Of a DNA stretch of 64,000 nt, positions 5,442 to 63,871 are shown one piece after another. The position numbers and the translations under genes were made by a program. The stretch is from Porpolomopsis calyptriformis. Taxonomy: Eukaryota; Basidiomycota; Agaricomycetes; Agaricales; Hygrophoraceae. The notes beneath the pieces are model-generated. The model was not told the origin of the DNA. It did no database searches and worked only from the letters and a program-made list of their open reading frames with translations. The stretch covers positions 124,001 through 188,000 of the forward strand of contig OX621165.1 in NCBI GenBank assembly GCA_951640195.1, written 5' to 3'. Position 1 is the stretch's first letter. Every line of letters starts with the position of its first letter.

Positions 5442-7148
5442 TGTCATGAAATTGGCGTTCACTCTCTTAAAATTTCTCTCTTTTCTTCATTCTTTTCTTT
5501 TCTTTCTTATGCCAATTCTTTTGGGAGGGAGGCTGTCTTTATTGGCAGTAGAAACTACTTGTACAAAGGAAGGAGTCCATGTCTAACTAGCTAACTGTAC
5601 TAGTCCGTCTTGGCAATCTCCTGCACCATACTGTCCCTCAAGAACTCTACAAAACTCGACACTACTTGACCATCTATTGCGGCCAACTTATTACCCCAGT
5701 AGATTGCCCCATTGGTGTCACCACCAGAGGCCTGCAACTTGGCAGCCTTCCCTTCAATGAAACTCATTGCTATCTTTCTCGCTTCCTCACCCAACCAATC
5801 ATTGGTGGGACTCCATAACAAACTGGGAGGAACTTCTTCCTCCTCGATCTTGACGTTGACATTAGTCAATGACAACGACAAATCTTCCACTAAGAATAAG
5901 GAGTCAACAATCACAAAGAAAGTGAGGGAATTGAGAAGCTTACCACTAGATAAAGAACTCAATGGACCAGGGGTCCAAGGACGGAAGGGGGGACTGGCAG
6001 CCCAGTCAACTGCCTCCTTCTTGACAGAAGGGAGGGAATCAGCCCACTTGTCAGACCCCCAATTAACCTGCTCCTCCAAAGGGAGGTGAGAAGTAAGGGG
6101 AGGGGCGTCATCATCCCAAGCTAAAGAAGGGAAAGCCTATTATCAATAAACACAGACTAATAAAGACAAAACAAAATACTCACCAAGCGGATCCTCCATC
6201 AAGCCACAAGCATGCTGGATTGGCCAGCGAACGAACAGACACTTCTTGACTTTGTGCTTGCCACCGCAAGCAAAGCAGGAGAAAGAAGACCAACAGAGGT
6301 CAGCATCGGAGGGGATGCGCTGGAGGTAGTAGTGAAACGAATTGCAATCAAGAAAGACAGGAGCAGTGCGGTGCACCACTCCAGACTGCTTAAAGAATCG
6401 GACGTAGTGGCCTTGGTGGGAGGGAGTCATGATGAATTGACAAGGATTGAACTGAAACGTAGGGATACAACCCCACACCTTTTATATGCTCAGACACAAA
6501 GGGAAGACCAAAAGGAGGTTCCTCAGTCAAAGAAGAGAAACCCGATACGCCGGACAAGAGATAGAAACAGCGGCGATCTCATGACTAGAAGAACAATAGG
6601 AACCAGTCATGAGATGGTACAGCCTGATACTGCGGAAGGCTATGCCCAATAGAGTTGAGTCATCAAAACAACACAGCCTTCTGCAGTATGACTAAGAACA
6701 ATGGCAAACCTTAAATCGGAGGCTGTGAACAATAGAAAATGGGGTGACTGCGGAAGCTGACTCATAGTGACTCTTATTTTAGAAATACTATATAAACCCT
6801 GAGGGCGAAGCGGATCATCACTTTGTCCTCCTGTGAGATTACTTGTAGTAGCACGAACGCAATCAGAATCATCAGACTTCTTTTCCATCAGAACAAGAAA
6901 AGAGAAACACAAAACACAACTACTAAGCCAACCGTTCATGCCCATATTCCCTAAACTCTCAGCAGAGGCACACAATGGATTTAACCTGCAGAACAACTTC
7001 TTTGTAGAAGTAAAACTTAATTCAGAAGGAATCATCACTCTATTCGAAGACGTCCCTGTCAGAACCTTCTTCTACATCCTACTAGACTTATTGAGCTCCA
7101 AGGCCTGCCTTGTGATTAACGAAAAGACTTGCAACTACAGTTGTGACA
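5442..7148 (-). mobile_element. Element D copy 1 (1,707 bp, protein-coding LTR-like unit)
   Basis: TGTCATGAAATTGG at the left and GTTGTGACA at the right, flanked by TSD ATACT (5437-5441 and 7149-7153) inside solo LTR F. It is base-for-base colinear with D2 (same 1,707-bp length). The minus strand carries the spliced gene (5600-6430) and the plus strand the terminus-crossing frame (6938-7177). There is no gag, pol or internal region, so by structure it is a solo LTR or a non-autonomous element mobilised by a retroviral-type integrase. Confidence 0.93.
5600..6430 (-). CDS. D1 spliced gene, 237-aa Cys/His protein of unknown function
   Basis: Exons (minus strand) 6430-6184, 6120-5944 and 5889-5600. 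The introns (63 and 54 bp) begin GTGAG and GTAAG and end in TAG. The frame is open throughout and ends KTD then TAG. Residues 46-75 hold a cluster Cys46, Cys52, Cys55, His59, Cys64, His73, Cys75, including CFACGGKHKVKKC, which resembles a shortened zinc knuckle (C-x2-C-x3-H-x4-C). Exon 2 is acidic and Pro/Trp-rich. Exon 3 starts acidic (IEEEEVPP) and ends in a helical segment. TATAAAA lies about 50 nt upstream and AATAAA about 57 nt downstream. I do not recognise the family. Nucleic-acid binding is only a guess from the cysteines. Confidence 0.72.
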
Positions 7149-10519: not shown

Positions 10520-11755
10520 TTCCTGATCAAGGAGAGATCGCGATAATTCTAGATTACGACCACGCTATGTCTATGCTATCTGTCAATTCCTGTGCGCCTC
10601 TATGCGCAACAAATAAAGTTTCAACAGTTTCCCATGCTTATTTATCCGCTTGTGACCTCCCCGACCTTATCTCTAAATCTTGATCAACTAGCGATTGACC
10701 TTCCGTTTCCGACCGTCTCGATCGATCAATGGAAATTGCAACCTTCCTCGCATCGAAAAAGAAATATAAACCCGTCTCGAAGAAAGTTCGCTCTGTAGTA
10801 GCTGAACTCCCTGACAAGTTCTGAATCATTCGGAAAATCCTTGGCGATCCACTCACGGATATGCCAACACTCGACCCGAACCCCCCCACGTTTACCCCGA
10901 CCGAACGATATACAATCGAATGGATGGAGCTTTCGATAAAGCTCACCCTGGAGATTTCCTTTGGCCTCAAGAAAGGGCCCTCCTTCATGATTTCATGAGA
11001 AAACAAAATCTCGCCTTCGCCTGGAACGACTCCAAACGAGGACGTTTCAGATCCGACTTTTTCCCTCCCATAGATCTCCCAGTCATACCACATATGCCCT
11101 GGGTACAAAAGAATATTCCGATTCCCCCAGGGATCTACCACGAAGTATGTAAAGTTATCCAGCGAAAAATCAACGCTGGTGTCTACGAACCCTTGAACTC
11201 CTCCTACCGATCGCAATGGTTCACCGTTCTAAAGAAAGGAGGAAAAGAACTTAGAATCGTTCACAGTCTCAAACCACTTAATCAAGTAACGATTTGACAT
11301 TCGGGAGTGACGCCAATCCCCGAACACTTGGCCGAACAGTTCGGCGGTCGATCCTGCGGCGCTATGTTTGATCTGTACGTTGGATATAATGAACGAGTAA
11401 TCGCGCCTTCGTCTCGCGATTTAACCACGTTCCAAACACCCTATGGGGCTCATCGACTAGTTACCCTACCCATGGGATGGACCAACTCTGTGCCTGTTTT
11501 TCACGACGACGTCACCTATATCCTCCAACCGGAGATTCCTGAGTTTACGATCCCCTATATCAACGATATCCCTGTGAAGGGTCCCGCGACTGGATACGTA
11601 CTCCCCGATGGATCCTATGAAACAATTCCCGAAAATGACGGAATTCGACGATTCGTATGGGAACACTTCGGGAATCTGAATCAGATAGTCCAGCAAATGA
11701 AATATTGCGGTGGAACGATGTCAGGCTATAAATCGTTCTTGTGCGCAGAAGAAAC
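10520..11755 (+). pseudogene. pol: Gypsy E: reverse transcriptase, up to D2
   Basis: RT of a gypsy family common in Agaricomycetes. After a frameshift near 10917 the blocks are GDFLWPQERALLHDF, NIPIPPGIYHEV (about 11115), AGVYEPLNSSYRSQWF, HSLKPLNQVTI (then TGA 11295), PIPEHLAEQFGGRSCGAMFD, LVTLPMGWTNSVPVFHDDV (about 11460) and the active site IPYINDIPVKG (about 11550). Related elements, as I recall the family, have YIDD here. The first Asp reads Asn. The frame is cut at GAAAC 11751-11755 by D2 and resumes in register at 13468. D2 plus its TSD adds 1,712 bp, so the shift is only apparent. Confidence 0.88.
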
Positions 11756-11966
11756 TGTCACAACTGTAGTTGCAAGTCTTTTCGTTAATCACAAGGCAGG
11801 CCTTGGAGCTCAATAAGTCTAGTAGGATGTAGAAGAAGGTTCTGACAGGGATGTCTTCGAATAGAGTGATGATTCCTTCTGAATTAAGTTTTACTTCTAC
11901 AAAGAAGTTGTTCTGCAGGTTAAATCCGTTGCGTGCCTCTGCTGAGAGTTTAGGGAATATGGGCAT
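11721..11966 (-). CDS. D2 terminus-crossing frame
   Basis: Minus-strand ATG at 11966 (MPIFPKLSAEARNG), open through the element end at 11756 and into gypsy E until 11721. Seventy codons lie inside D. It differs from the D1 version by conservative changes such as V/I in the motif FED(V/I)PVRTFFYILLD. The TATA box lies at about 12109-12116. Confidence 0.48.
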   Translation of the reverse strand: MPIFPKLSAEARNGFNLQNNFFVEVKLNSEGIITLFEDIPVRTFFYILLDLLSSKACLVINEKTCNYSCDSFFCAQERFIA

Positions 11967-12108
11967 GAACGGTTGGCTTAGTAGTTGTGTTTTGTGTTTC
12001 TCTTTTCTTGTTCTGATGGAAAAGAAGTCTGATGATTCTGATTGCGTTCGTGCTACTACAAGTAATCTCACAGGAGGACAAAGTGATGATCCGCTTCGCC
12101 CTCAGGGT

Positions 12109-12424
12109 TTATATAGTATTTCTAAAATAAGAGTCACTATGAGTCAGCTTCCACAGTCACCCCATTTTCTATTGTTCACAGCCTCCGATTTAAGGTTTGC
12201 CATTGTTCTTAGTCATACTGCAGAAGGCTGTGTTGTTTTGATGACTCAACTCTATTGGGCATAGCCTTCCGCAGTATCAGGCTGTACCGTCTCATGACTG
12301 GTTCCTATTGTTCTTCTAGTCATGAGATCACCACTGTTTCTATCTCTTGTCCAGCGTATCGGGTTTCTCTTCTTTGACTGAGGAACCTCCTTTTGGTCTT
12401 CCCTTTGTGTCTGAGCATATAAAA
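12109..12424. promoter_or_regulatory. Divergent promoter of D2 with 18-bp hairpin
   Basis: Two TATA boxes face away from each other: TATATAAA on the minus strand (12109-12116) and TATAAAA on the plus strand (12418-12424). Between them lie an inverted repeat (12215-12232 against 12260-12277, 16 of 18 pairing, 27-bp loop), TGACTCA at 12242, TGAGTCA near 12140, and ATTGTTC (AACAAT on the other strand) near 12170, 12204 and 12308. The same layout occurs in D1, D3, D4 and D5. The regulation is inferred from motifs only. Confidence 0.55.
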
Positions 12425-12473
12425 GGTGTGGGGTTGTATCCCTACGTTTCAGTTCAATCCTTGTCAATTCATC

Positions 12474-13304
12474 ATGACTCCCTCCCACCAAGGCCACTAC
12501 ATCCAATTCTTTAAGCAGTCTGGAGTGGTGCACCGCACTGCTCCTGTCTTTCTTGATTGCAATTCGTTTCACTACTACCTCCAGCGCATCCCCTCCGATG
12601 CTGACCTCTGTTGGTCTTCTTTCTCCTGCTTTGCTTGCGGTGGCAAGCACAAAGTCAAGAAGTGTCTGTTCGTTCGCTGGCCAATCCAGCATGCTTGTGG
12701 CTTGATGGAGGATCCGCTTGGTGAGTATTTTGTTTTGTCTTTATTAGTCTGTGTTTATTGATAATAGGCTTTCCCTTCTTTAGCTTGGGATGATGACGCC
12801 CCTCCCCTTACTTCTCACCTCCCTTTGGAGGAGCAGGTTAATTGGGGGTCTGACAAGTGGGCTGATTCCCTCCCTTCTGTCAAGAAGGAGGCAGTTGACT
12901 GGGCTGCCAGTCCCCCCTTCCGTCCTTGGACCCCTGGTCCATTGAGTTCTTTATCTAGTGGTAAGCTTCTCAATTCCCTCACTTTCTTTGTGATTGTTGA
13001 CTCTTTATTCTTAGTGGAAGATTTGTCGTTGTCGTTGACTAATGTCAACGTCAAGATCGAGGAGGAAGAAGTTCCTCCCAGTTTGTTATGGAGTCCCACC
13101 AACGATTGGTTGGGTGAGGAAGCGAGAAAGATAGCAATGAGTTTCGTTGAAGGGAAGGCTGCCGAGTTGCAGGCCTCTGGTGGTGACACCAATGGGGCAA
13201 TCTACTGGGGTAATAAGTTGGCCGCAATAGATGGTCAAGTAGTGTCGAGTTTTGTAGAGTTCTTGAGGGACAGTATGGTGCAGGAGATTGCCAAGACGGA
13301 CTAG
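12474..13304 (+). CDS. D2 spliced gene, 237-aa Cys/His protein of unknown function
   Basis: Exons 12474-12720, 12784-12960 and 13015-13304 (247, 177 and 290 nt, giving 238 codons with stop). Both introns are phase 1 with GTGAG/GTAAG donors and TTTAG/CTTAG acceptors (63 and 54 bp). ATG (ATCATGACT) lies 50 nt after TATAAAA, and AATAAA is at 13361. Exon 1 encodes the Cys/His cluster (CFACGGKHKVKKC, residues 52-64). Exon 2 has a Trp-rich acidic segment (NWGSDKWADSLP). Exon 3 encodes IEEEEVPPSLLWSPTNDW and a final helix. No signal peptide or membrane segment is seen. Five copies keep the exon sizes exactly, which supports a real gene. Function unknown. Confidence 0.75.
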
Positions 13305-13467
13305 TACAGTTAGCTAGTCGGACATGGACTCCTTCCTTTGTACAAGTAGTTTCTGCTGCCAATAAAGACAGCCTCCCTCCCAAAAGAATTGGCATAAGAA
13401 AGAAAAGAAAAGAATGAAGAAAAGAGAGAAATTTTAAGAGAGTGAACACCAATTTCATGACAGAAAC

Positions 13468-18155: not shown

Positions 18156-20111
18156 ACAATAGCTTGTGTATTGCAGACTCCTTTTCTCTGTGTACTACTG
18201 CCCCTATGCAATCTATTTCTCAAATTCTTGGTGCACTTGATTTGAGCAAAGAAGCTTTAACTATACCCCTTTGGTTGGAAACCACAGACACTGGTAGACA
18301 AATTGCCACTAGTGCATTGATAGACTCTGGCACCTCTGGATGCTTTATAAACTGGAACTTTGTGCAGGAGCGCGATATCCCTTTTTATCGATTGGAAGGA
18401 CCAATCCCTATATGGAATGCAGATGGGACAGACAACTAAGGAGGTCCCATCGAATATGCTGTAGACCTGTGGATGGAGACAATAGATTTTCCTAGGGAAC
18501 AATCCCATTTGGAAGTGACAAATTTAGGAGATATAATACAGGTTATCCTTGGGTACCCATGGCTCAAACATAATGATCCCCTGGTTGACTGGAAGGCTGG
18601 AACACTGACTTCACGTCAGACTGTGGCCCTAACCGAGACTTCTCAGGCTGGAGTAATAGTGTCACAAGTAGGCTCCATGTTGAATGGTGACTCCTACACC
18701 AAGATTATCAGATTGGTCTCACTGGGAGACTATGCAAGACCCACTACTGTGGAGGAAGATATGAAGAAGTATGTGCTGAAGAAATACTGGAGGCACTGGA
18801 AGGTGATTATGAAGACTACCTTTGATAAACTTCCCCCATGACAACTAGAATTTGACCATGCAATTGATCTCAAACCTACCTTTAGACCCAAGATCAGAAA
18901 GGTGTACAAACTCACTGAGTATGAACAGGGAAAGCTGAATGAATTCCTGGAGGAACAACTTGCAAGTGGATGAATACGATGATCAAATTCCAAACAAGCT
19001 GCCTCATTCTTCTTTACTCCCAAAGGTGAAGAAGTTAATGCCCAAGGACAAGATGCTGGACTACATCCAATCCAAGACTACCACTATCTGAATGCTCACA
19101 CAATCCCAGATGCCTATCCCTTACCTCTCATCTCTGAGATCATTCAACAGACCAAGTTGTCAGAAGTGGAATTGTTCACAGTCATGGATATCCGATGGGG
19201 CTTTAACAATATTCATATCAAAGAAGGAGATGAATGGAAAGGAGCCTTCAACACTTGATGAGGGCTGTTTGAACCCACTGTCATGTTCTTTGGAATGTGA
19301 AACTCGCCTGCCTCTTTCTAATGAATGATTGACATTCTCTTCAAAGAGGTTATTGATTCCAAACAGGTCCATATCTATATTGATGACATCTTGATCATGG
19401 GAAAGGACCTTACTAAACTTACCTATTGGATGGAATGAACTCTAGAGATCATAGAGAAGAACCAACTGTCCTGCAAACCCGTCAAGTACTAGTTTGAGAA
19501 AAAGGAAGTAATTTATCTGGGGATGATGATCTCTAAAGGCCACATTGCTATTAACCCCAAGAAGGTTGAGGTGATCAGAACCTGGCCTATCCCCCAGAAG
19601 AAATGAGACCTTCAATCCTTCCTTGGCACTACCAACTTTTGTGAAGGTTTATCAAGGATTACTCCCTGATTGCTTGTCCTCTCAATGAGCTCCTATGAAA
19701 GGATCAAGAATGGATTTGGACACCTAGGCAACAACATGCTTTTGATACCCTCAAGGATGCACTTACCTCTGCTCCCATTTTGAGGACCCTAAAACCAGGT
19801 CTTCCTTACCTTCTGGAGACAGATGCCTCTGGTGTTGCCCTGGGTGCAGTGTTGTCCCAGAAAGAGAATGACAAAGAAGATTAGCACCCCATTGGCTTCT
19901 ACTCCAAGACCCTCCTCCCAGCTGAATGGAATTATCCTACCCATGACCAAGAGCTTTTAGCTATTATATCTGCCTTGGATGAATGGAGATACCTCCTACA
20001 AGGGACATGACAGCCCATTATGATCAAGACTGATAACCAGTCCCTCCAATACTTCATGACCAGCCATCAGCTCTCCAGACGCCAGGCTAGATGGTCTGAG
20101 TTTTTAGCTTG
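18156..20111 (+). pseudogene. pol: Gypsy B: protease, RT and RNase H
   Basis: B pol resumes after E. Protease: SALIDSGTSGCFINW (about 18315, intact DSG) and VILGYPWLKHNDPLVDW (about 18545). RT: LEFDHAIDLKPTFRPK, FTVMDIRWGFNNIHIKEGDEW (19175-19240), EPTVMFF, and the active site HIYIDDILIMGKDL (about 19372, intact YIDD). RNase H: LLETDASGVALGAVLSQK (about 19810), THDQELLAI and MIKTDNQSLQYFM (20020). It ends in HQLSRRQARWSEFLA at 20111, where C is inserted at CTTTT. Stops and a few frameshifts inactivate it. At least two stops (19256 and near 18972) are TGA where arginine is expected. Confidence 0.9.
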
Positions 20112-20553: not shown

Positions 20554-21514
20554 TTAATGTAGACGTTGGAGATGTCTCGAGCAATCTTGTAGGAGCCAAT
20601 GTGGCACATAACATGGGATGGTGGGGAGGTAATGACTGTATCGTCGTTGGATATCCAAGGCCGAAAGAGGGAGCGTGAGCTGGTATAAGTGAAGTGCTTG
20701 GCTGTGACCGTCCAATTGCACAATGAGAGTGACTGCATTGGTTGGGCCTTCTTCATAAATCCAAGCTCGGCATACATGAGAAGGGAGGTGAGGGAAGAGA
20801 ACGGAAATGTCGAAATTGGAATCCAGAGCACGATCGACCTCAATGGGTGTGAGTGGGACAATGACATTGATGTTGTTGGACATCATCGGTGGTTTGTAGC
20901 CTTCGCCGTACAAGTCAGTGACCGGATCATAGAGGCAATCATCGATGCTGAAGAAGTCGTCCATATGGATGGCACGGATCTGAAGTCTCAGGGCTGGTTG
21001 TTTCGGGTTCAGAGCATGGAACTCGTCGACTAACTCTTGAGCATGTGCAATGTCGGACACGGACTGCCAGGTGTTCTCTTCATTGGTGTAGCCCTCCCAA
21101 TGCACTAGGTATTGGAGTTGCTTTCAGTGGATTTGGGAATCCAGAATTTTCTTGATGACGTATTCGGTTTCACCGTCTAATTGGAGAGGAGGGGGAGGAG
21201 GAGGAGCCTTTTGGTTCAGGAAGGAAGAATGACAGTAGGGGGACAAGTAGGACTCATTGAAGACTGGGTGCAGGCCCATCCATTCATGGGGGAGTTCGAG
21301 TCGGTAAGCTGAACGACTAATTTTCTCGATGACCTTGAAGGGTCCAAAGCATTTGTTGTCGAGTTTCTTCATTGCACGATTGGTCTTGATGTTCATGGTG
21401 GCGAGCCAGACTTTATCTCCAGGGGAGTACTCATGAACAGATTGGGATCGTTTATCATGGCTAGTCTTCATTTTCTCGTTGGCTTGCCTAAGAGCGGATT
21501 CAGTCTCTTGATGG
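20554..21514 (-). pseudogene. pol: Gypsy C: integrase tail, chromodomain and long C-terminal extension
   Basis: After solo LTR K the minus strand reads VHQETESALRKANEKMK, SPGDKVWLATMNIKTNR, KLDNKCFGPFKVIEKI (GPY/F module) and HPVFNESYLSPY. A chromodomain follows (LQYLVHWEGYTNEENTWQ, about 21120-21060), which in chromoviruses targets integration to marked chromatin. Beyond it about 150 codons stay open to TGA 20554 (for example IDDCLYDPVTDLYGEGYKPP). That tail is much longer than the usual few residues after a chromodomain and is not recognised. Confidence 0.82.
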
Positions 21515-21519
21515 ACACA

Positions 21520-21837
21520 TGTTACGATCGCATTTCGTGTCCTACTTGTCCGGGACTGGTAACCTGGTCCGCGGACCTACTCTATTTGGTCACAGTTGGT
21601 CATCCCTTTCTTATCTCGTTTCTTTGCCTAGATTTATCAGATCATGTAATCTCAATTTGTGATAGCTTAGCCGGCTCCGTCTAACCATGTAGTTAGCACT
21701 ACTTACGGTCTCTAATTAGTCATTAGGGTATAGGGTACTGTATCATGTATATAAGAGTAGTCGGATGGGCAAGGTCGGCCCATCCTCAGTTATCCACTTG
21801 ATATTTGGGGTATCAGTCATCCATCGCGAGTCTAACA
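21520..21837. mobile_element. Solo LTR K (318 bp)
   Basis: TGTTACGATCG...GAGTCTAACA inserted in the C integrase frame, with TSD ACACA (21515-21519) and ACACG (21838-21842), one C/T mismatch. It contains TATATAAGAG near 21748. It is non-coding with no partner in the window. Confidence 0.82.
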
Positions 21838-21842
21838 ACACG

Positions 21843-22769
21843 CTTCATTCGTTTGGCGAATTGGGTAGCAGATTCATTCTAGACTTCTCTTCAGGTGTCG
21901 TTTCCAGACCAGGGATGTTGGCCATAATTGACATAGAAGGGGGTTTGGGTGGTGGCAGCATGGACAGAGTTGTTGTATGAGAACTCAGCCAGTGCCAACC
22001 ATTCCTTCCAATTATCCTGACGGTGGTTGATGAAGACTTGTAGGTACTGTTCGAGAGTCTGATTCATTCATTTGGATTGGCCATCAGTCTGAGGGTGATA
22101 GGCAGTGGAAACGTTCTGTGTTGTGCCTAAGAGGCAGAAGAGATCAGTCATGTACTTGGATATGAATCGCGGATCGCGATCGTGAATGATCCATTGTGGG
22201 ATTCCATGATCTTGGATGATGCGGTCCTGAATGATCTTGGCGAAGCCTTCCGAGTTGAGCTCAATATGGGTGGGCTTGAACTTGACAGCTTTCGAGAATG
22301 CGTCGACGATAGTCAGGACAGTGTTGTAACCCTGACATTCAGGGATTAGTCCCACAAGGTCAACGGTGATTGTATCCCAAGGGTGAGCTGGGGGGTCGAA
22401 AGGATGAAGTGGGGTCTTTGCAGGCAAGCAAGATGCCTTGGTTCGTTGGCAAGTCTCACAACTGGAGATGTACTGCTTCACATCTTGATGGATAGTAGGC
22501 CACCAGTAATCGCGACAGAGGACTTCAGTGGTCTTGAAGGGGCTGTAATGTCCTGAAAGGGGGTTGTCATGATACTGAGAGATGATTTCTCCACAAAGGG
22601 TATTGTCAACAGAGACGTAAATCCGATTGTTGAAGGTGAGGATACTGTCATCTTGGGTCTTCCAATCGTTTTCTTCTTTTGCTTGAGAGAGTGTAACGGA
22701 ATCCTCTTTGTTCCGGTAGGAATCCTTGATGCATAAGCGAAAGTGGTTGGGTTCAACATCGAGTTGGAC
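21843..22769 (-). pseudogene. pol: Gypsy C: integrase core
   Basis: Zn-binding HHCC (ISQYHDNPLSGHYSP and YISSCETCQRTKASC, 22590-22430). Catalytic core: ITVDLVGLIPEC (first Asp), IIHDRDPRFISKY (second Asp) and TAYHPQTDGQSK then TGA, where the usual motif is DGQTE/DGQSE, so the catalytic Glu reads Lys. Open for 257 codons. Upstream it is separated from RNase H by solo LTR J1, and downstream from its tail by K. The Glu to Lys change and TGA 22068 suggest inactivity. Confidence 0.86.
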
Positions 22770-22773
22770 CGGT

Positions 22774-23345
22774 GATACGACCCCTGGGTCCCCTGAGGTC
22801 CGGAGGACATGTTTTATATATCGACGTGATCCCCCAGACATCTACTACACTACTACGATGTCCCCGACTACGCGATTCAGCTTCCTGTCCAGCGATTTAT
22901 CTCTGAATGCTTCAGATTTCTGCGAATTTCTTCGAATTCTCTGATCCTTCGATTCGCGTTCGCAGCTCATATCAAAGGATGCATCTGATAGCCAGATGTC
23001 CATTGTGTAGTTCTCCATCGTTCCCATTGACCCTTTCACTGGTGGCTTCGTTCAGAAGTCTCATCCCTTTACTATATAGCATATAAAGGGATCTTTGTTT
23101 TCACAGATATATTTACTTGTAGATATGTTTGTATCATAGAGAAGGAAGATAGATCCCATCGTCCCACGTCTAGTCCTTCATGTTTGAGCCTCTTCGACTG
23201 CCTCTAGCACTCTAGAGAGTGCTCCGAATTTCTGATTTCTTCTATTTCTTCGATTTGCATGATTTCTTTGATAGCTCCTTTCTATTGTGCCTCCCACCAT
23301 CTCTCGGGGCAGATCCCAGAGCTCAGACGGCTCCACATCGCATCA
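22774..23345 (-). mobile_element. Solo LTR J1 (572 bp, gypsy E-like)
   Basis: TGATACGACCCCTGGG...CACATCGCATCA, flanked by CCGG (22770-22773) and CCAG (23346-23349), a 4-bp TSD with one mismatch. The first 12 bases equal those of the E LTR, so J and E are probably sister families. It lies between RNase H and integrase of gypsy C. It contains ATATAAAGGGATC. Confidence 0.85.
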
Positions 23346-23349
23346 CCAG

Positions 23350-24999
23350 TTGGAGGTCTATGATGGGGTGAGAAGAAATGGAAAAAAGAGAGTCGGGTAA
23401 GAGAATTGTGTCATCATTGTCATCCACCCCCCTTTCAAATCCTGGTCGTCTCAACAGGATGTCAGCCTTCGAATTGGCCTTACCAGCAACATGATGAAGG
23501 GTGAAATGGAAGTCTTGCAACTCCGTGAGCCAGCGGGCTTGACGCCTATTCAGCTTCTGCGGCTTCTTGAAGTACTGGAGGTTGGCGTGGTCAGTCCAAA
23601 CCTCAAAGACTTGCTTGGCAGGCAACAAATGCTTGTGAAACTCCTGCAGAGCAGTCATTATTGCAAGGAGCTCGCAATCGTAAATTTGGTAATTTCATTC
23701 TGCAGGACTGAAAGATTTCGAGAGGAATCCGATGGGCTTCCAGATGTTTTCTTGTTTTTGTGAGAGTATTGCACCCAGAGTGTATTCGGAAGTATCAGTC
23801 TCAATGTGGAGTAAGTTGTGATCATTGGCAATGGAGAGAATGGGAGCAGAAGTAATAATTGTCTTGAGGACGTCGAAGGCATCCTGGCATTGATTAGTCC
23901 ATTTGAAAGGAGTGTTTCCAGTTAAGATATTGAGGGGGCGTGCAATGCCAGCAAAGTGATGTATGAAATGACGATAGAAATTGCAAAATCCAAGGAAGGA
24001 CTCAACATCATGCTTGCAGGTTGGGGTCGGCCAGTTGGTAATACCTTGGACCTTGATTGGATCCATCTTGACTTGGGCTTCGGAGACAACGACTCCAAGA
24101 TATTCCACTTATCTTTGGTCGAATTTGCATTTATCGGGTTTGAGGTAAAGCTTGTGTTCATGAAGTAGAGACATGACTTCGTGGACATGCCAATGATGCG
24201 TCTCGAGATCTTTGTCGAAGATCAGTATGTTATCGATATAAATCAATACGTGACCTTGGTGGATCTGAACATGGAAGATGTCATTCATCATTGTTTGGAA
24301 AGTAGCAGGCAAGTTCGTGAGTCCGAAAAACATAACTAAGGGTTCGAACAAGCCATGGTTGGTTCTGAATGCGGCTTTGTGTTCGTCGCCTTCCTTGATG
24401 CGAACGTTGTTGTAACCCCAACAGATGTCCAACTTAGTGAAATAGCGGGCATTCTGCAGGGCGTCGATGAGTTCAGTGATCAAAGGGAGCAGGTAGCGAT
24501 TCTTGATGGTCATGTCATTCAGTTTACAGTAATCTTGGATCGGGCGTAATCGACCATCTTTCTTCTTGATAAAGAAGAAGGGGGAAGTGATGGGGGAAAT
24601 GGAAGGGTGAATTCGTCCAGTTCAGAGATTCTCTTCGAGGAATTCGTTGAGTTGCGAATGTTCATCCACACTGAGGGGATAGATCTTGCAATCGAGTTTC
24701 TCTTTGGTTCCGGGGAGTAATTCGATCGCATGATCCCAAGGATGAGGTAGTGGTAGTTCGTCAAAATCCTTTTTGGTGAAGACATCTTGGAATCCGTGAA
24801 GATAACTGGGGATGATGTCTTTCCAATCGCAGTCCTTCTTCTGGGCCTCAGCAGCTTTGATTGCGAGTTCCTGCGACTTGGTAGTCATCAACCGAATCTG
24901 GATAGCAGGAGCGAGATCGATCATAAGGAGATGATCATCATCTTCCAGAGTAAGGTTGTTGATGTCAGAGGAATCGACAGAGGGATAACAGTCTGAGGG
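23350..24999 (-). pseudogene. pol: Gypsy C: reverse transcriptase and RNase H
   Basis: Near-complete RT-RNase H with a few stops. Blocks: HPWDHAIELLPGTKEKLDCK (24750), FFFIKKKDGRLRPIQDY, FTKLDICWGYNNVRIKEGDE (24440), GLTNLPATFQTMMNDI, active site LIYIDNILIFDKDLE (24240; Asn replaces the second Asp), then GFCNFYRHFIHHFAGI. RNase H: HIETDTSEYTLGAILSQK (23800), YDCELLAI and FEVWTDHANLQYF (23610), ending NRRQARWLTELQDFHFTL. Stops include TGA where arginine is expected (after EENL and after AE). The frame continues into the integrase beyond J1. Confidence 0.9.
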
Positions 25000-25815
25000 G
25001 CATCAATTGAAATTGAGAGTACCAACCTTCCAATCCACAGAGGGATTATAGGTCTTAAGCCAGTCATGTCCGAGGAAAACTTGTCCTTTACCGAGGTTGG
25101 TTACGGCGAAATTGATCCTTTCCACATGAGTTCTGACTCATAGCTCGAGAGTGACCATTTCCATGATGGGGCCTTCCGTGTTGGGTTGTCCATCAGCATT
25201 GTGCACTGGAATGGGTCAAGCGAGGGAGGTTGTGTGGAGATCATGGTCTCGGATGTACTTGATGTCAATGCAGGAGCCTTCGCATCCACTGTCGATGAGA
25301 GCAGTGGCAGTGTGCTCTGCACGATTGTCCAGGGTAACAAGATGGGCCTTGAGGATGAGTTGGTTTCCTTTGGAGCCACAAACAAAGATGTGAGGTTGTT
25401 TGAGTTCATTCAAGGCTCGAATGGCATTCTCCAGGGTGAGGGTGGTGATTTCGTCGATGGTGGACTGCACCATTTCATGTGAGCATGCTGGGTGTGACCA
25501 ATGTTGAAGAATAGAGATTGCAGAATTAGCGTTGCCCTTAATAGCATTAATGATGTCCAGAGGTGTTGAAAGAGAGTTGACATCGATTGAATCGACAGAA
25601 GGAGACAATGATTCGGGAGCAGGGATTTCAGGGCATTCAATGCATGCATCTGCCAGAACAGGTTTCGGAAGGGAAGAAACAATGGGGGTATTGGATTTGG
25701 ATATACTCAGTATTGTACATGCCATTGTCGTAGATAAAGGAGAAATGTCTGATATGAGAGTGTTCTGCCAGAGCAAACAACTTCCAGTTGAGTGAAGGGA
25801 ACACATCTTCATCAA
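25000..25815 (-). pseudogene. Gypsy C: protease region
   Basis: A 199-codon open stretch ending at TGA 25216, then continuing in frame. Retropepsin block ATALIDSGCEGSCIDIKYI (about 25300, intact DSG) and closing block VFLGHDWLKTYNPSVDW (about 25070-25020). It follows a Ser/Pro-rich linker after gag. The corresponding part of gypsy A has NSG. Confidence 0.85.
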
Positions 25816-28304: not shown

Positions 28305-29027
28305 GGTTTAGAATCAGCTACCAGCCTAGGATCAAGAATAAGGCTGATGGACTCTCCAAACGTCCAGATCATTACCTGGAGTCTTATAAGGAGGTGGAGG
28401 ACAAGGTCCTTCTGCCAAAAGAACCTTTTGTCAATGCGCTTTTCATTAATGCAATCATTAGTTTATCATCCCCCAACTTTTTATCCAAGCTTTGCTTTCA
28501 TTCCCCCCTGCCCCTCGAGATCATGGCCAAAATTGAAGATCCCTCTTCTGGATACACCCACATAGATGGCATTGTGTGCAATGCTGGAGATCATATAGTT
28601 GTGCCAAAGGACATATCTTTGCGCATGGAAATTATTCGATTGACCCATGACACACCCACTGGTGGCCATCCGAGTATTGAGAAGACAAAGGAACTGCTCC
28701 TCTGTAACTACACATGGGAAGGTGCCCCACAAGATATCACCAATTATGTGAAGTCCTGCCTTGCTTGTCAACAAACCAAGGTTTACCCACAGAAACCCAC
28801 TGGACTTCTCCAACCGTTACCCCCTCCTACTAAACTGTGGCAACAGATCACTGCTGATCTAATTGTGGAACTCCCTAACTCAAAAGGATTTGATGCTATC
28901 CTAGTTGTGGTGGACAGATTCACCAAATGGGCTCACTTCATCCCAACAACTGGAAACCTATCTGCCAAAGGAACTGCTGCGCTGTTTCAAGAACATGTCT
29001 GGACTATGGATGGCTAGAGAAGATCAT
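28305..29027 (+). pseudogene. pol: Gypsy B: RNase H end and integrase core
   Basis: B pol resumes after C with ISYQPRIKNKADGL, the RNase H end motif. Integrase zinc domain: IRLTHDTPTGGHPSIEKT and YVKSCLACQQTKV (28640-28780), HHCC intact. Core: ITADLIVELPNSKGFDAILV (first Asp), VVDRFTKWAHFIPTTGN, and the second Asp region after TAG 29015 (IITD, then TGA). Open for 207 codons with strong conservation. Confidence 0.88.
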
Positions 29028-29907
29028 TACTGATTGAGGAACCCAATTCTTATCAAAATTCACTACATCATTGAACAAACTCCTAGGAACCACTTCTGGG
29101 CTTTCTACCGCCTATCACCCCAAAACAGATGGACAAACCGAATAAACCAATCAAGAGTTAGAGCAGTATGTACAGCTCTACACTAACTTCATGCAAGATG
29201 ATTGGAAAGATTGGTTAGCTCCAGCAGAGTTCACTTATAACAACCAAGAACATTCCTCCACTCACCAATCCCCCTTCTGGCTTGAATATGGTTGACACCC
29301 TCACACCCCCTTATCAGTTCCAACCCAAATGTCAAATCCCAATGCCAATGAGTTTTATGTGCAGCTCACTAGGGCTAGAGAGAATGCTGAAGAATCTCTT
29401 CAAAAGACCGCTAACTCAATGAAGCTCTATGCTAATCAAAAATGTCAAAAGGAACCTATGTTTTATGAAGGACAAAGGGTCTGGCTTGATGCCAAGAATT
29501 TGAAAACTGGCCAGCCAGTGAAGAAACTGGATGTCCACTGGCTCAGACCTTTTATAAATCTAAAACAAGTATCACCTGTAGCTTACCAACTAAAGCTACC
29601 GCTGTCATGGAGGATCCACCCTGTGTTTCATGTTTCACTACTCAAAGCTCTAGAGGAGAATCTCAATCTCCATCCCCCCATTGAGGAAGATGATAACCTC
29701 TAACCACCTCCAGATGTGATCGAAGGGGAACCCAAGTATGAAGTGGAACGTATCCTAAATCACACCCCAGGAAAACAAAATTGGCAATACTTAATCAAGT
29801 GGAAAGGCTACCTGATAGAGGCAGCCACCTGGGAACCATGATGGAACCTCAAGCACGCGAAAGAGGTCTTGATGAATTATGAAAAGTCTATTCAAGCAGC
29901 AATTTAA
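29028..29907 (+). pseudogene. pol: Gypsy B: integrase end and chromodomain
   Basis: Continues with STAYHPKTDGQTE (catalytic Glu present, then TAA), LEQYVQLYTNFMQDDW, GQRVWLDAKNLKTGQP (GPY/F module, about 29473), HPVFHVSLLKAL and a chromodomain YLIKWKGYLIEAATWEP (about 29793-29840) closed by TGA, ending in TAA 29906. The chromodomain places B among chromoviruses. Broken by scattered stops. Confidence 0.87.
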
Positions 29908-37828: not shown

Positions 37829-39537
37829 TGTCATGAAATTGGCATTCACTCTCTTAAAATTCCTCTCTTTTCTTTGTTCTTTTCCTTTCTTTTCTATGCC
37901 TTTTCTCTTTGGAGGGGGGGCTGTCTTTGTTGGCAAGCGGAAACTACTTGTACAAAAGGAGGAGTCCATGTCCGACTAACTATTTATACTAGTCCGTCTT
38001 GGCAATCTCCTGCACCATACTATCTCTCAAAAACTCTACGAAACTAGAAACTACTTGACCATCTAAAGCGGCCAATTTATTACCCCAGTAGATTGCCCCA
38101 TTAGTGTCACCACTGGAGGCCTGCAACTCGGCAGCCTTCCCCTCGACGAAACTCATTGCTATCTTCCTCGCTTCCTCACCCAACCAATCGTTGGTGGGAC
38201 TCCATAACAAACTAGGAGGAACTTCTTCCTCCTTGATCTTAACGTTGATGTTAGTCAACGATGACGACAAATCTTCCACTAAGAATAAAGAGTCAACAAT
38301 CATGAAGAGAGCAAGAGAATTGAGAGCTTACCACTAGATAAAGAACTCATTGGACCAGGGGTCCAAGGACGGAAGGGGGGACTGGCAGCCCAGTCAACTG
38401 CCTCCTTCTTAACAGAAGGGAGGGAATCAGCCCACTTGTCAGACCCCCAATTAACCTGCTCCTCTAAAGGGAGCTGGGAAGTAGGGGGAGGGGCGTCATC
38501 ATCCCAAGCTAAGAAAGGGAAAGCCTATTATCAACAAACACAGACTAATAAAGACAAAACAAAATACTCACCAAGTGGATCCTCCATCAACCCACAAGCA
38601 TGCTGGATTGGCCAGCGAACGAACGGACATTTCTTGACTTTGTGCTTGCCACTGCAAGCGAAGCAGGAGAAGGAAGACCAATAGAGGTCGGCGTCGGAAG
38701 GGATGCGCTGGAGGTAGTAGTGAAATGAATCGCAATCAAGAAAGACAGGAGTAGTGCAGTGCACCACTCCAGACTGCTTGAAGAATCGGACGTAGTGGCC
38801 TTGGTGGGAAGGAGTCATGATGATTGACAAGGATTGAACTGAAGCGTAGGGATACAACCCCACACCTTTTATATGCTCAGAAACAAAGGGAAGACCAAAA
38901 GGAGGTTCCTCAGTCAAAGAAGAGAAACCCGATATACTGGGCAAGAGATAGAAACAACGGCGATCTCATGACCAGAAGAACAATAGAAACTAGTCATGAG
39001 ATGACACAGCCTCATTCTGCGGAAAGGCTATGCCCAATAGAATTGAGTCATCAGAAGCACACAGCCTTTTGCAGAATGACTAGGAACAATGACAAACCTT
39101 AAACTGAAGGCTGTGAACAATAGAAAATGGGGTGACTGCGGAGGCTGACTCATAATGACTCCTATTTTAGAAATACTATATAAACCCTGAGGGCAAAGCG
39201 GATCATCACTTCGTCCTCCTGTGAGATTACTTGTAGTAGCACGAACGCAATCAGAATCATCAGACTTCTTTTCCATCAGAACAAGAAAAGAGAAACATAA
39301 ACCCATAACTACCGAGCCAATCATTCATGCCCATATTCCCTAAACTCTCAGCAGAGGCACGCAACGGATTTAACTCACAGAACAACTTCTTTGTAGAAGT
39401 AAAACTTAACTCAGAAGGAATCATCACCCTTTACGAGGACGTCCCCGTCAGAACTTTCTTCTACATTCTACTAGACTTATCAAGCTCCAAGGCCTGCCTT
39501 GTGATTGACGAAAAGACTTGCAACTACAGTTGTGACA
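37829..39537 (-). mobile_element. Element D copy 3 (1,709 bp)
   Basis: TGTCATGAAATTGG...GTTGTGACA with TSD CCAAA (37824-37828 and 39538-39542). It probably sits in an intron of the relic gene to its right. Same gene layout as D1, with moderate divergence from D1/D2 and closer to D5. Confidence 0.95.
37989..38818 (-). CDS. D3 spliced gene, 237-aa Cys/His protein
   Basis: Minus-strand exons 38818-38572, 38508-38332 and 38278-37989 (247, 177 and 290 nt, identical to D2). Introns are 63 and 53 bp with GTGAG/GTAAG donors and TTAG acceptors. The frame is fully open. Differences from D2 include R21C, A23T, C46Y and a Gly to Ser inside the Cys/His motif (CFACSGKHKVKKC). The metal-binding residues Cys52, Cys55, His59 and Cys64 are kept while Cys46 is lost, so Cys46 is probably not essential. 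AATAAA and TATAAAA are conserved. Function unknown. Confidence 0.7.
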
Positions 39538-41580: not shown

Positions 41581-42029
41581 TTATGGTTGTATCTGTGCAG
41601 TGATGTGATGTGGAGCTGTCTGAGCTCTGGAATATGCCCCAAGAGATGATGGGAGGCACAATAGAAAGGAGCTATCAAAGAAATCGTAAAAATCAAAGAA
41701 ATAGAAGAAATCAGAAATTTGGAGCACTCTCTAGAGTGCTAGGGGTGGTCAAAGAGGCTCAAACATGAAGGACTAGATGTGGGACGATGGAATCTATCTT
41801 TCTTCTCTATAATACAAACATATCTACAAGTAAATATATCTGTGAAAACAAAGATCCCTTTATATGCTATATAGTAAAGGGATGAGACTTCTGAATGAAG
41901 CCACCAGTGAAAGGGTTGATGGAAACAATGAAGATCTACACAATGGATGTCTGGCTGTCAGATACATCCTTTGATATGAGCTGCGATCATGAATCAAAGG
42001 ATCAAGGAATTCGAAGAAATTTGCAGAAA

Positions 42030-42305
42030 TCAGAAGAATTCGGAGATAAATCGCTGGACAGGAAGCCGAATCACATAGTTAGGAACATCGTAGCTGTCAC
42101 AACTGTAGTTGCAAGTCTTTTCGTTAATCACAAGGCAGGCCTTGGAGCTCAATAAGTCTAGTAGGATGTAGAAGAAAGTTCTGACAGGGACGTCTTCGTA
42201 TAGAGTGATGATCCCTTCTGAATTAAGTTTTACTTCTACAAAGAAGTTGTTCTGCGGGTTGAATCCGTTGCGTGCCTCTGCTGAGAGTTTAGGGAATATG
42301 GGCAT
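42030..42305 (-). CDS. D4 terminus-crossing frame
   Basis: ATG 42305, open to the D4 end at 42095 and into J2 to 42030. Intact even though the spliced gene of D4 has three stops. The sequence is close to D1/D2 (LQ to PQ, FED to YED). Confidence 0.48.
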   Translation of the reverse strand: MPIFPKLSAEARNGFNPQNNFFVEVKLNSEGIITLYEDVPVRTFFYILLDLLSSKACLVINEKTCNYSCDSYDVPNYVIRLPVQRFISEFF

Positions 42306-43802
42306 GAACGGTTGGCTCAGTAGTTGTGTTTTGTGTTTCTCTTTTCTTGTTCTGATGGAAAAGAAGTCTGATGATTCTGATTGCGTTCGTGCTACTACAA
42401 GTAATCTCACAGGAGGACGAAGTGATGATCCACTTCGCCCTCAGGGTTTATATAGTATTTCTAAAATAGGAGTCACTATGAGTCAGCTTCTGCAGTCACC
42501 CCATTTTCTATTGTTCACAGCCTCCGGTTTAAGGTTTGCCATTGTTCTTAGTCATACTGTGGAAGGCTGTGTTGTTTTGATGACTCAACTCTATTGGGCA
42601 TAGCCTTCCGCAGTATCAGGCTGTGCTGTTTCATGACTGGTTCCTATTGTTCTTCTAGTCATGAGATCGCCGCTGTTTCTATCTCTTGTCTGGTGTATCG
42701 GGTTTCTCTTCTTTGACTGAGGAACCTCCTTTTGGTCTTCCCTTTGTGTCTGAGCATATAAAAGGTGTGGGGTTGTATCCCTACGCTTCAGTTCAATCCT
42801 TGTCAATCATCATGACTTCTTCCCACCAAGGCCACTACGTTCGATTCTTCAAGCAGTCTGGAGTGGTGCACCGCACTGCTCCTGTCTTTCTCGATTGCGA
42901 TTCGTTTCATTACTACCTTCAGCGCATCCCTTCCGACGCCGACCTCTGCTAGTCTTCCTTCTCTTGTTTTGCTTGCGGTGGCAAGCATAAGGTCAGAAAG
43001 TGTCCATATGTTCACTGGCCAATCCAGCATGTGTGTGGCTTGATGGAGGATCCGCTTGGTATGTATCTTGTTTTGTCTTTATTAGTCTGTGTTTATTGAT
43101 AATAGGCTTTCCCTTTTTTAGCTTGGGATGATGACACCCCTCCTCCCACCTCCAAGCTCCCTTTGGAGGAGCGAGTTGATTGGAGTTCCGACCGTTGGGG
43201 GTATCCCCTCCCCTTTGATGATGCTAAGCCTGAGGACTTGGCTACCAGCCCCCCTTTCCATCCTTGGACCCCTGGTCCAACAAGTGTTTTGTCTAGTGGT
43301 GAGGCTTTAACTCTCTCGCTTTCTTCATAGTTGCTGATTCCCTGTCTTTTTTAGTTGAAGATTTGTCGTCATCGTTGACCAACATCAACGTCAAGATCAA
43401 GGAGGAAGAAGTTCCTCCTAGTTTGTTATGAAGTCCCACCAACGATTGGTTGGGTGAGGAAGCGAGAAAGATAGCGATGAGTTTCATTGAAGGGAAGGCT
43501 GCCGAGTTGCAGGCCTCCGGTGGTGACACCAATGGGGCAATCTACTGGGGTAATAAGTTGGCCGCAATAGATGGTCAAGTAGTGTCGAGTTTTGTAGAGT
43601 TCTTGAGGGACAGTATGGTGTAGGAGATTGCCAAGACGGACTAGTATAATTAGCTAGTCGGACATGGACTCCCCCTTTTGTACAAGTAGTTTCCGCTGCC
43701 AATAAAGACAGCCCTTCTTCCAAAGGAATAGGCATAAGAAAGAAAAGAAAAGAGCGACAAAAAGAGAGGAATTTTAAGAGAGTGAACGCCAATTTCATGA
43801 CA
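42095..43802 (+). mobile_element. Element D copy 4 (1,708 bp)
   Basis: TGTCACAACTG...TTTCATGACA with TSD GTAGC (42090-42094 and 43803-43807) inside J2. It is the most decayed D copy on the gene side and has a divergent exon 2. Confidence 0.95.
42812..43644 (+). pseudogene. D4 spliced gene, three stops, divergent exon 2
   Basis: Exon positions are the same as in other copies: 42812-43058, 43122-43298 and 43355-43644 (247, 177 and 290 nt). Stops: TAG after DADLC (about 42949, Trp47 position), TGA in SLL*SPTN and TAG near the end (MV*EIAK). Exon 2 differs over about 25 codons (EERVDWSSDRWGYPLPFDDA instead of EEQVNWGSDKWADSLPSVKK) while both sides stay near-identical. That points to a second subfamily or a recombined block. 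Confidence 0.8.
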
Positions 43803-45919: not shown

Positions 45920-46492
45920 TGATGCGATGTGGAGCCGTCTGAGCTCTGGGATCTGCCCCAAGAGATGATGGGAGGCACAATAGGAAGGAGCTATCAAAGA
46001 AATCGTGAAAATTGAAGAAATAGAAGAAATTGGAAAATTGGAGCACTCTCTAGAGTGCTAGAGGCGGTCGAAGAGGCTCAAACATAAAGGACTAGACGTG
46101 GGACGATGGGATCTATCTTCCTTCTCTATGATACAAACATATCTACAAGTAAATATATCTGTGAAAACAAAGATCCCTTCATATGCTATATAGTAAAGGG
46201 ATGAGACTTCTGAACGAAGCCACCAGTGAAAGGGTCAATGGGAACGATGAGGATTTACACAATGGATGTCTGGCTATCAGATGCATCCTTTGATATGAGC
46301 TGCGATCGCGAATTGAAAGATCGGAGAATTCGAAGAAATTCACAGAAATCCAAAGCGTTCGGAGATAAATCGCTAGACAGGAAGCTGAATCGCGTAGTCG
46401 GGGACATCGTAGCAGTGTAGTAGACGTCTTGAGGATCACGTAGATATGTGGAACATGTCCTCTGGACCTCAGGGGACCAAGGGGTCATATCA
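45920..46492 (-). mobile_element. Solo LTR J3 (573 bp)
   Basis: TGATGCGATGTGG...GGGGTCATATCA with TSD GCGT (45916-45919) and GTGT (46493-46496), a 4-bp duplication with one C/T change. Same family as J1 and J2. It preserves the intact target sites later hit by D4 and copia I in J2. Confidence 0.88.
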
Positions 46493-62158: not shown

Positions 62159-62374
62159 CTCGCTGTCACAACTGTAGTTGCAAGTCTTTTCGTCAATCAC
62201 AAGGCAGGCCTTGGAGCTTAATAAGTCTAGTAGGATGTAGAAGAAAGTCCTGACGGGGATGTCCTCGTAGAGGGTGATGATTCCTCCTGAGTTAAGTTTT
62301 ACTTCTACAAAGAAGTTGTTCTGCAAGTTAAATCTGTTGCGTGCCTCTGCTGAGAGTTTAGGGAATATGGGCAT
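62132..62374 (-). CDS. D5 terminus-crossing frame
   Basis: ATG 62374 (MPIFPKLSAEARNRF), open to the D5 end at 62164 and on into copia H until 62132. E to G and G to R changes mark this copy. TATATAAA (minus strand) lies near 62519. Confidence 0.48.
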   Translation of the reverse strand: MPIFPKLSAEARNRFNLQNNFFVEVKLNSGGIITLYEDIPVRTFFYILLDLLSSKACLVIDEKTCNYSCDSEALVAISNL

Positions 62375-63871
62375 GAACGATTGGCTCAGTAGTTATGGGT
62401 TTATGTTTCTCTTTCCTTGTTCTGATGGAAAAGAAGTCTGATGATTCTGATTGCGTTCGTGCTACTACAAGTAATCTCACAGGAGGACGAAGTGATGATC
62501 CGCTTCGCCCTCAGGGTTTATATAGTATTTCTAAAGTAGGAGTCATTATGAGTCAGCCTCCACAGTCACCCCATTTTCTATTGTTCACAGCCTCCGATTA
62601 AGGTTTGCTATTGTTCCTAGTCATCCTGCAGAAGGCTGTGTGCTTCTGATGACTCAATTCTATAGGGCATAGCCTTCCGCAGATTGAGGCTGTGTTATCT
62701 CATGACTGATTTCTATTGTTCTTCTGGTTATGAGATCGCCGTTGTTTCTATCTCTTGCCCGGCGTAGCGGGTTTCTCTTCTTTGACTGAGGAACCTCCTT
62801 TTGGTCTTCCCTTTGTGTCTGAGCATATAAAAGGTGTGGGGTTGTATCCCTACACTTCAGTTCAATCCTTGTCAATCATCATGACTCCTTCCCACCAAGG
62901 CCACTACATCCGATTCTTCAAGCAGTCTGGAGTGGTGCACCGCACTGCTCCTGTCTTTCTCAATTGCGATTCTTTCCACTACTACCTTCAGCGCACCCCC
63001 TCCGATGCTGACCTCTGCTGGTCCTCCTTCTCTTGTTTTGCTTGCGGTGGCAAGCATAAGGTCAGAAAGTGTCCGTATGTTCGCTGGCCAATCCAGCATG
63101 TTTGTGGCTTGATGGAGGATCCGCTTGGTATGTGTCTTGTTTTGTCTTTGTTAGTCTATGTTTGTTGCTAATAGGCTTTCCTTCTTTTTAGCTTGGGATG
63201 ACGACGCCCCTCCCCCTACTTCCCAGCTCCCTTTGGAGGAGCAGGTTAATTGGGGGTCCGACAAGTGGGCTGACTCTCTTCCTTCTGTCAAGAAGGAGGC
63301 AGTTGACTGGGCTGCCAGTCCCCCTTTCCGTCCTTGGACCCCTGGTCCATTGAGTGTTTTGTCTAGTGGTAATGCTCTCAACTCTCTCGGTCTCTTCGTA
63401 GTTGCTGATTTCTTTGCCTTTTTTAGTCGAAGATTTGTCGTTGTCGTTGACTAATGTCAACGTCAAGATCGAGGAGGAAGAAGTTCCTCCCAGTTTGTTG
63501 TGGAGTCCCACCAACGATTGGTTGGGTGAGGAAGCGAGAAAGATAGCGATGGGTTTTGTTGAAGGGAAGGCTGCCGAGTTGCAGGCCTCCAGTGGTGACA
63601 CCAATGGGGCAATTTACTGGGGTAATAAGTTGGCCGCATTAGATGGTCAAGTAGTCTCGAGTTTCGTAGAGTTCTTGAGGGACAGTATGGTGCAAGAGAT
63701 TGCCAAGATGGACTAGTTTAGATAGTTAGTCGGACATGGACTCCCCCTCTTTGTACAAATAGTTTCCGCTGCCAATAAAGACAGCCCCCCTTCCAAAGAG
63801 AACAGGCAAAGAAAAGAAAAGAATCAAGAAAAGAGAGGAATTTTAAGAGAGTGAATGCCAATTTCATGACA
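62164..63871 (+). mobile_element. Element D copy 5 (1,708 bp)
   Basis: TGTCACAACTG...TTTCATGACA with TSD CTCGC (62159-62163 and 63872-63876) in the RT of copia H. Both genes are open. Confidence 0.95.
62881..63716 (+). CDS. D5 spliced gene, 237-aa Cys/His protein
   Basis: Exons 62881-63127, 63192-63368 and 63427-63716 (247, 177 and 290 nt) with introns of 64 and 58 bp. The donors are GTATG and GTAAT, different from D1-D3, while exon lengths and frames are unchanged. Introns vary in sequence and length among copies while exons do not, as expected of a selected coding gene. The motif CFACGGKHKVRKC is intact. Exon 3 ends KMD rather than KTD. TATAAAA lies at about 62826 and AATAAA at about 63774. 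Confidence 0.74.

Follow-up and report, generated by a model that had tools for sequence, protein, structure and literature searches.

A predicted antisense gene with two introns within the long terminal repeats of a Ty3/gypsy chromovirus in Porpolomopsis calyptriformis

Five D units in a 64-kb window

We examined a 64,000-nucleotide stretch of the genome of the agaric Porpolomopsis calyptriformis (Hygrophoraceae; assembly GCA_951640195.1, contig OX621165.1, positions 124,001 to 188,000, forward strand; hereafter the window), which contains five copies of a 1.7-kb unit, D, each carrying a predicted spliced gene. A first-pass annotation made from the window sequence had placed these copies and described their TGTCA...TGACA ends and five differing, perfect 5-bp target site duplications (TSDs), all of which were reproduced (Table 1). 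The five units are solo long terminal repeats (LTRs), and the other four are 91.0-98.9% identical to the unit at 11756-13462. Each of the five again yielded three exons (247, 177 and 290 nt), GT-AG introns and a predicted product of 237 aa, and the gene is open in four, as originally reported, the exception being the unit at 42095-43802 with its three premature stops. Both TATAAAA and AATAAA had been assigned to every copy; TATAAAA is indeed present in all five, but AATAAA lies past the stop codon in only four, the unit at 37829-39537 lacking it.

Table 1. Positions of D units and their component features in the window
Feature	Position	Strand	Remarks
D solo LTR	5442..7148	-	98.9% identical to copy 11756..13462; gene open; TSD ATACT (+ strand)
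TSD GAAAC, left copy	11751..11755	.	Flank of D unit 11756..13462
D solo LTR	11756..13462	+	D-gene orientation (parent gag-pol would read on -); recognised by ends and TSD; D bounds full-length elements L009-L012
Leader open reading frame, first 70 codons	11756..11966	-	Pol sense; runs off LTR end into interior of full-length elements
TATATAAA, candidate gag-pol promoter motif	12108..12115	-	Pol sense; 44/44 copies
TATAAAA upstream of D gene	12418..12424	+	44/44 copies; unit position 663
D exon 1, 247 nt	12474..12720	+	
C-x2-C-x3-H-x4-C cluster	12627..12665	+	Residues 52-64; exon 1
D intron 1	12721..12783	+	62-65 nt across 44 copies; in-frame stop 44/44
D exon 2, 177 nt	12784..12960	+	Least constrained exon
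D intron 2	12961..13014	+	53-58 nt across 44 copies
D exon 3, 290 nt	13015..13304	+	Includes stop codon
AATAAA downstream of D stop	13361..13366	+	An AATAAA downstream in 40/44 copies
TSD GAAAC, right copy	13463..13467	.	Flank of D unit 11756..13462
D solo LTR	37829..39537	-	Gene open; TSD CCAAA (+ strand)
D solo LTR	42095..43802	+	Gene broken, three premature stops; TSD GTAGC
D solo LTR	62164..63871	+	Gene open; TSD CTCGC

D units are the LTRs of a chromovirus

The genome (33.5 Mb in 17 contigs) was searched for full-length elements bounded by two D units, a check proposed with the first-pass annotation, and such elements exist. Several pairs of D units share a strand and are spaced by about 7.05 kb, and the four pairs that we fetched (L009, L010, L011 and L012) all have D at both ends, with TG..CA termini and an identical 5-bp sequence outside both LTRs. 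The interiors, 5341-5356 bp long, encode a gag CCHC knuckle, aspartic protease, reverse transcriptase (RT), RNase H, integrase, SH3_Tf2-1 and a chromodomain; in open reading frames (ORFs) of L009 and L011 the Pfam matches RVP_2, RVT_1, RT_RNaseH, rve and Chromo follow the chromovirus order of protease, RT, RNase H and then integrase with a C-terminal chromodomain. This domain set identifies the D parent as a Ty3/gypsy chromovirus. In the three junctions inspected a polypurine tract, GGGAGGGGG, precedes the 3' LTR by three bases, and the two LTRs of each element are 97.7-98.6% identical. In a protein search with pol the top-scoring named record was a frog protein and vertebrate records were among the best; the named fungal matches are from Psilocybe, Moniliophthora, Phlebia, Ganoderma, Leucocoprinus and Lyophyllum. 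The existence of D-bounded elements with the D gene in their LTRs supports the original description of D as a gene-bearing LTR family.

No D-family gag-pol was found in the window, which the L009 interior matches over 64 nt only; the pol matches in the window are 29-51% identical to L009 pol. Genome-wide, with 85 of 1109 candidates scored, pol at 90% identity or more was found at 15 loci (16 rows of matches), the next match dropping to 51% or less. A 28-letter pattern for the D LTR end, allowing up to three mismatches, is present at 252 places, and the reversed control at none. With 252 LTR ends and 15 pol loci, most D units seem to have lost gag-pol.

For comparison of copies we used 44 units: the five window copies, those of the 40 best DNA hits that lie outside the window (38) and an additional unit in locus L013. 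Thirty are individually flanked by a perfect TSD, and another eight form the LTRs of L009-L012; among the other six, three run into internal sequence at one end, two share mismatched flanks and one has a one-base flank difference. The two with mismatched flanks (L019 and L020) are on different contigs and have the same non-matching pair, GATAG and ATGGT, perhaps reflecting a duplicated locus.

The D gene is antisense to gag-pol

At 13 of the 15 pol loci the D gene is antisense to gag-pol, the loci C12:494469 and C13:860437 not being assigned. The orientation was read directly at five fetched loci (L009-L012 and L042), and follows from coordinates and strands at C1:1144274, C2:500290, C3:1297567, C4:380368, C6:1070437, C6:2114496, C10:420284 and C14:952406, although the spacing to the D ends at C4:380368 is off, as in a rearranged element. 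Neither this orientation nor a second constrained ORF in the same LTR (described below) was part of the first-pass annotation.

In pol sense the motif TATATAAA occupies unit positions 360-353; if it is the gag-pol promoter, the D gene probably lies wholly in U3. The two TATA motifs, about 300 bp apart and facing opposite ways, would make the LTR a divergent promoter unit, with the putative transcription start sites of gag-pol and of the D gene placed from motifs only.

Exon structure in 44 copies

All 44 copies have exons of 247, 177 and 290 nt and GT-AG boundaries at both introns, although the introns themselves vary in length. Lengths not divisible by three occur in 20 copies for intron 1, in 25 for intron 2 and in 27 for at least one of them; splice sites and frame are nevertheless kept in every copy, as in a spliced gene. 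In an alignment the 714 exon nucleotides are free of gap columns, whereas the 117 intron nucleotides have 10 and the 158-nt 3' part 34; the 718-nt 5' part, too, has only 10. Because intron 1 has an in-frame stop in every copy, splicing is required for the long product. Among six further, mostly more divergent copies that we read (L042 and L044-L048), the gene is intact in L042, exons 2 and 3 are full length in L045, and exon 1, the only exon covered in L048, is full length there.

Two diverged versions of exon 2 are found, in 32 and 11 of the 44 copies, with one other, and unit positions 1101-1260, spanning exon 2 and intron 2, form a local diversity peak. Recombination between D subfamilies around exon 2 is suggested.

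Substitutions in the D exons

Variants were treated as shared when carried by at least three of the 44 copies, and the noncoding part of the LTR itself supplied the expected rates. The shared variants number 45, 28 and 100 at codon positions 1, 2 and 3, and comprise 73 nonsynonymous (N), 96 synonymous (S) and four stop changes, an N/S that is 0.36 of the noncoding-based expectation (0.28, 0.68 and 0.26 for exons 1, 2 and 3).

The two LTRs of an element are identical at insertion, so differences between them provide a contrast that is independent of the noncoding yardstick. In L009-L012 the paired LTRs differ in the D exons by 40 N, 21 S and one stop (N:S of 15:7, 5:1 and 20:13 in exons 1, 2 and 3). 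The neutral N/S was 1.74-2.29 under the weightings tried, and against the value used, 1.96, the binomial P for the paired differences is 0.89; comparison of these with the shared variants gives a Fisher P of 0.003. Both P values are rough, as variants are linked by descent. Change in the D exons after insertion thus looks neutral in the four pairs, and this together with the low N:S of the shared variants fits a protein selected during replication of the element. The substitution pattern (73 N:96 S shared; 40 N:21 S between paired LTRs) therefore favours the earlier proposal that the protein may act for the element. Over all pairs of the 44 copies, N/S is 1.70 in the closest class and 0.52-0.88 in classes with at least 45 differences.

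For reference, the four interiors differ by 39 N:54 S across protease-RT and by 43 N:89 S across integrase-chromodomain. The skew of the shared D variants is about that of these pol differences, although the two counts were not made alike. Of the 124 differences between paired LTRs in L009-L012, 122 are transitions and 90 are at CpG, which looks like CpG decay as expected of methylation-linked repeat decay.

Periodicity alone cannot fix the coding strand, since the mirrored frame shares its third positions. Coding in the D sense fits 7.2 log units better than the mirrored antisense frame, and in the D sense codon position 2 is the most constrained. A pol-sense reading of the region is rejected by 6-11 stops per copy and a lower likelihood, despite a 208-codon open stretch in 12 copies. 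A chance ORF is ruled out by the constant exons and splice sites, the codon periodicity and the N:S pattern.

The predicted protein

The C-x2-C-x3-H-x4-C cluster noted in the first-pass annotation is present in the predicted protein; C52 and C55 are found in all 44 copies and H59 and C64 in 43. The CCHC zinc knuckle (PF00098) has the spacing C-x2-C-x4-H-x4-C, and the D cluster, with x3 in place of x4, is not matched by that profile at E up to 1. Judging by this cluster, the protein may be a nucleic-acid-binding regulator of element expression, RNA handling or silencing, which we regard as the weakest step of the interpretation. Our search of the same genome with D scored 150 of 569 candidates and kept the best rows only, so that a diverged host paralogue could escape it.

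A leader ORF in the same LTR

A second ORF, in pol sense, lies at the U5 end of the LTR. Its 70 LTR codons are open in 42 of the 44 copies and its ATG is present in 43, with a ratio of 0.23. In L009 and L010 it continues for 97 codons into the interior, overlapping the start of gag in another frame; in L009 it comprises 167 codons (L009:1817-2320) across the LTR/internal junction. L011 and L012 have a stop in the interior part, which outside the gag overlap shows 2 N:8 S in addition to these two stops. It could encode a separate leader protein or a frameshift extension of gag. No relatives were found at E up to 1 among 11 candidates, and the LTR part has no Pfam match. The leader ORF resembles D exon 1 no better than shuffled sequences do, and a shared origin of the two was rejected.

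A proposed antisense accessory gene and alternative explanations

We favour, with fairly good confidence, the explanation that D is the LTR of a Ty3/gypsy chromovirus with an antisense, two-intron accessory gene that is under purifying selection during replication and neutral after insertion. The D gene would be expressed from its own TATA promoter and, in most copies, its own poly(A) signal, and this could occur from any LTR including a solo LTR. The sense genomic RNA would carry the D introns reverse-complemented, and hence unspliced before reverse transcription. An intron-bearing gene in the sense orientation is expected to lose its introns in retrotransposition, and from this established biology we attribute the survival of the D introns to the antisense orientation; laboratory retrotransposition reporters use the same antisense-intron logic. 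The product would serve the element as an accessory protein, maintained by purifying selection through replication. Its likeliest role is that of an accessory regulator, dosage control by solo LTRs being a bolder version of the same idea.

Several observations weigh against this explanation. The gene is intact in 28 of the 44 copies and broken in 16, with premature stops at codons that specify W, Q or C in the reference copy. Intron 2 has an in-frame stop in 15 copies and is open in 29, where retaining it would not interrupt the frame. Among the divergent copies, exon 3 of L044 has a 3-nt in-frame deletion that leaves the gene open, and L046 and L047 are broken by exon indels, intron 1 of L046 being GT-AA. 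Splicing and translation of the gene are predictions from sequence. The D protein has no Pfam match at E up to 1 and no homologue at E up to 10 among 545 candidates from a library that includes fungal proteins; a sequence search of the Protein Data Bank gave six matches, all over short stretches and none convincing (best E 0.44), and AlphaFold gave poor models, with a mean pLDDT of 47, for the exon 1 and exon 3 parts when these were built from the window copies with an open gene (four).

The substitution data also contain contrary elements. The 44 copies were selected by similarity to the query, and descent links their variants. When the exons are fitted by likelihood the ratio is 0.50, weaker than 0.36, and exon 2 is weakly constrained at 0.68. 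The silent excess in the shared variants (96 compared with 45.7 expected) outweighs the deficit of changing variants (73 compared with 95.8), and the exons are not less variable than the 5' 718 nt (nucleotide diversity, pi, 0.059-0.124 and 0.048 respectively); the noncoding yardstick may thus itself be constrained. Single-copy variants give 0.38, with eight stops compared with 4.3 expected, and since the sample comprises 44 of at least 252 units, many of them may also occur in copies outside it. Between elements, using one LTR per element, N/S is 0.56-1.34, and all three comparisons with L011 fall at 1.25-1.34. It is the silent excess and the between-element ratios that slightly reduce our confidence.

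One extension, which we consider speculative and unlikely, is that the LTR is a divergent two-gene cassette, with the leader ORF and gag-pol on one side and an intron-bearing regulator on the other, and that accumulating solo LTRs add regulator and so act as the family's own copy-number sensor. Each insertion would then be a lasting source of regulator, since solo-LTR recombination deletes gag-pol and keeps the D gene. A related proposal, that D encodes a dosage-dependent repressor whose level counts the gene-keeping solo LTRs and limits further transposition, agrees with the excess of LTR ends (252) over pol loci of at least 90% identity (15, with 85 of 1109 candidates scored) and with the 28 intact copies. 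The apparently neutral change after insertion in four LTR pairs, however, gives no sign that single copies were kept working; this proposal is quite unlikely.

Capture of a host gene that hitchhikes in the LTR, its frame intact merely because the copies are young, also appears very unlikely. Additional ORFs of plant elements are reported to be able to arise by gene transduction, in which case few copies, or a single one, usually have them (PMC7264820), and the D family is large, with 252 LTR ends. No D relative was found in the library with fungal proteins, and N/S exceeds 1 between some elements, but shared variants have a lower N:S than post-insertion differences and the exons show no length change in 44 copies that are up to about 15% different from the query. 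Finally, constraint on DNA or antisense RNA (for promoter function, packaging or double-stranded RNA control) in place of protein is highly improbable: antisense transcripts may control retroelements without encoding a protein (PMC7264820), and diversity is low (pi 0.048) in the 5' 718 nt, most of which is outside the known frames, but the D signal is three-base periodic, the spliced frame is kept despite intron length changes, and constraint fades before the ATG and after the stop.

Comparison with known systems

The mouse mammary tumour virus (MMTV) sag gene was offered in the first-pass annotation as a parallel, and it is one insofar as both genes are LTR-borne; sag is on the sense strand, however, and D is antisense. 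We claim no relation, sag being a superantigen that acts on lymphocytes. The main coding exon of HBZ, an antisense gene of human T-cell leukaemia virus 1 (HTLV-1), is outside the LTR, and HBZ thus differs from D, which is wholly within it. The sag gene is described as protein-coding and located in U3 (PMC9412291), and HBZ as having a spliced form and an antisense promoter in the retroviral 3' LTR (PMC10186651). The antisense proteins of human immunodeficiency virus 1 (HAPs) are reported from a gene in U3-R that starts in TAR DNA, in an abstract that mentions no introns (PMC1654176); D has two introns and its own TATA motif, and belongs to a fungal element.

The original statement that no fungal equivalent has been described was too strong. 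Boty-like Ty3 elements of Botrytis cinerea are reported to carry brtn, an antisense gene between pol and the 3' LTR (PMC7264820; PMC8365987), credited to Zhao et al. 2011, Virology 417:248 (cited in PMC8365987). Like brtn, D is an additional gene antisense to gag-pol in a fungal LTR retrotransposon, but brtn is present once per element, and is presumably lost from solo LTRs, whereas D is in both LTRs and has two introns. Plant Ty3 elements have antisense additional ORFs (aORFs) in the same position, namely Grande gene23 and those of RIRE2 and Retand (TRP28) (PMC7264820), and in Retand 97% of clusters are reported to code for TRP28 (PMC11963269). These aORFs resemble D as antisense accessory genes, are described as kept in most copies and are suspected of a nuclear or DNA-binding role, but D has no TRP28 Pfam match. 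With brtn and Grande gene23, the aORF-3R type, D shares the antisense orientation (at 13 of 15 loci) and does not share the position between pol and the 3' LTR.

A word search of the available text of a survey of fungal LTR elements found neither "antisense" nor "additional ORF" (PMC3248453), and a roo paper and a rotifer paper gave no LTR gene. Our literature search, with most subscription papers beyond reach, found no description of a retrotransposon whose LTR contains an antisense gene with introns. LTR elements with extra antisense genes are already known; the D gene differs in having two introns and in lying within the LTR, so that an element carries it at both ends and a solo LTR retains it.

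LTRs are usually viewed as regulatory DNA and solo LTRs as scars, whereas a D solo LTR retains a complete predicted protein gene, so that a genome with few gag-pol copies can carry many copies of an element gene. D would also represent a natural route for introns through retrotransposition. Because copies with and without gag-pol coexist, the function of antisense genes in LTR elements could become testable. Gene annotation that masks LTRs would miss genes like D.

Other repeats

The window contains further Ty3-like pol remnants, those 29-51% identical to D-element pol, at 1216-1851, 18734-19408, 21004-22409, 24184-25329, 28808-29880, 52892-53734 and 55195-55776. Elsewhere in the genome, a different Ty3 element with 624-bp terminal repeats is inserted into a D unit (L043, C5:882214-891993); its terminal repeats contain short internal repeats and do not match D. 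A repeat of about 0.5 kb is present in three copies in the window, at 41601-42094, 45920-46492 and 22773-23345. Because the first of these ends exactly at the start of the D unit at 42095, that D unit is probably inserted into another repeat.
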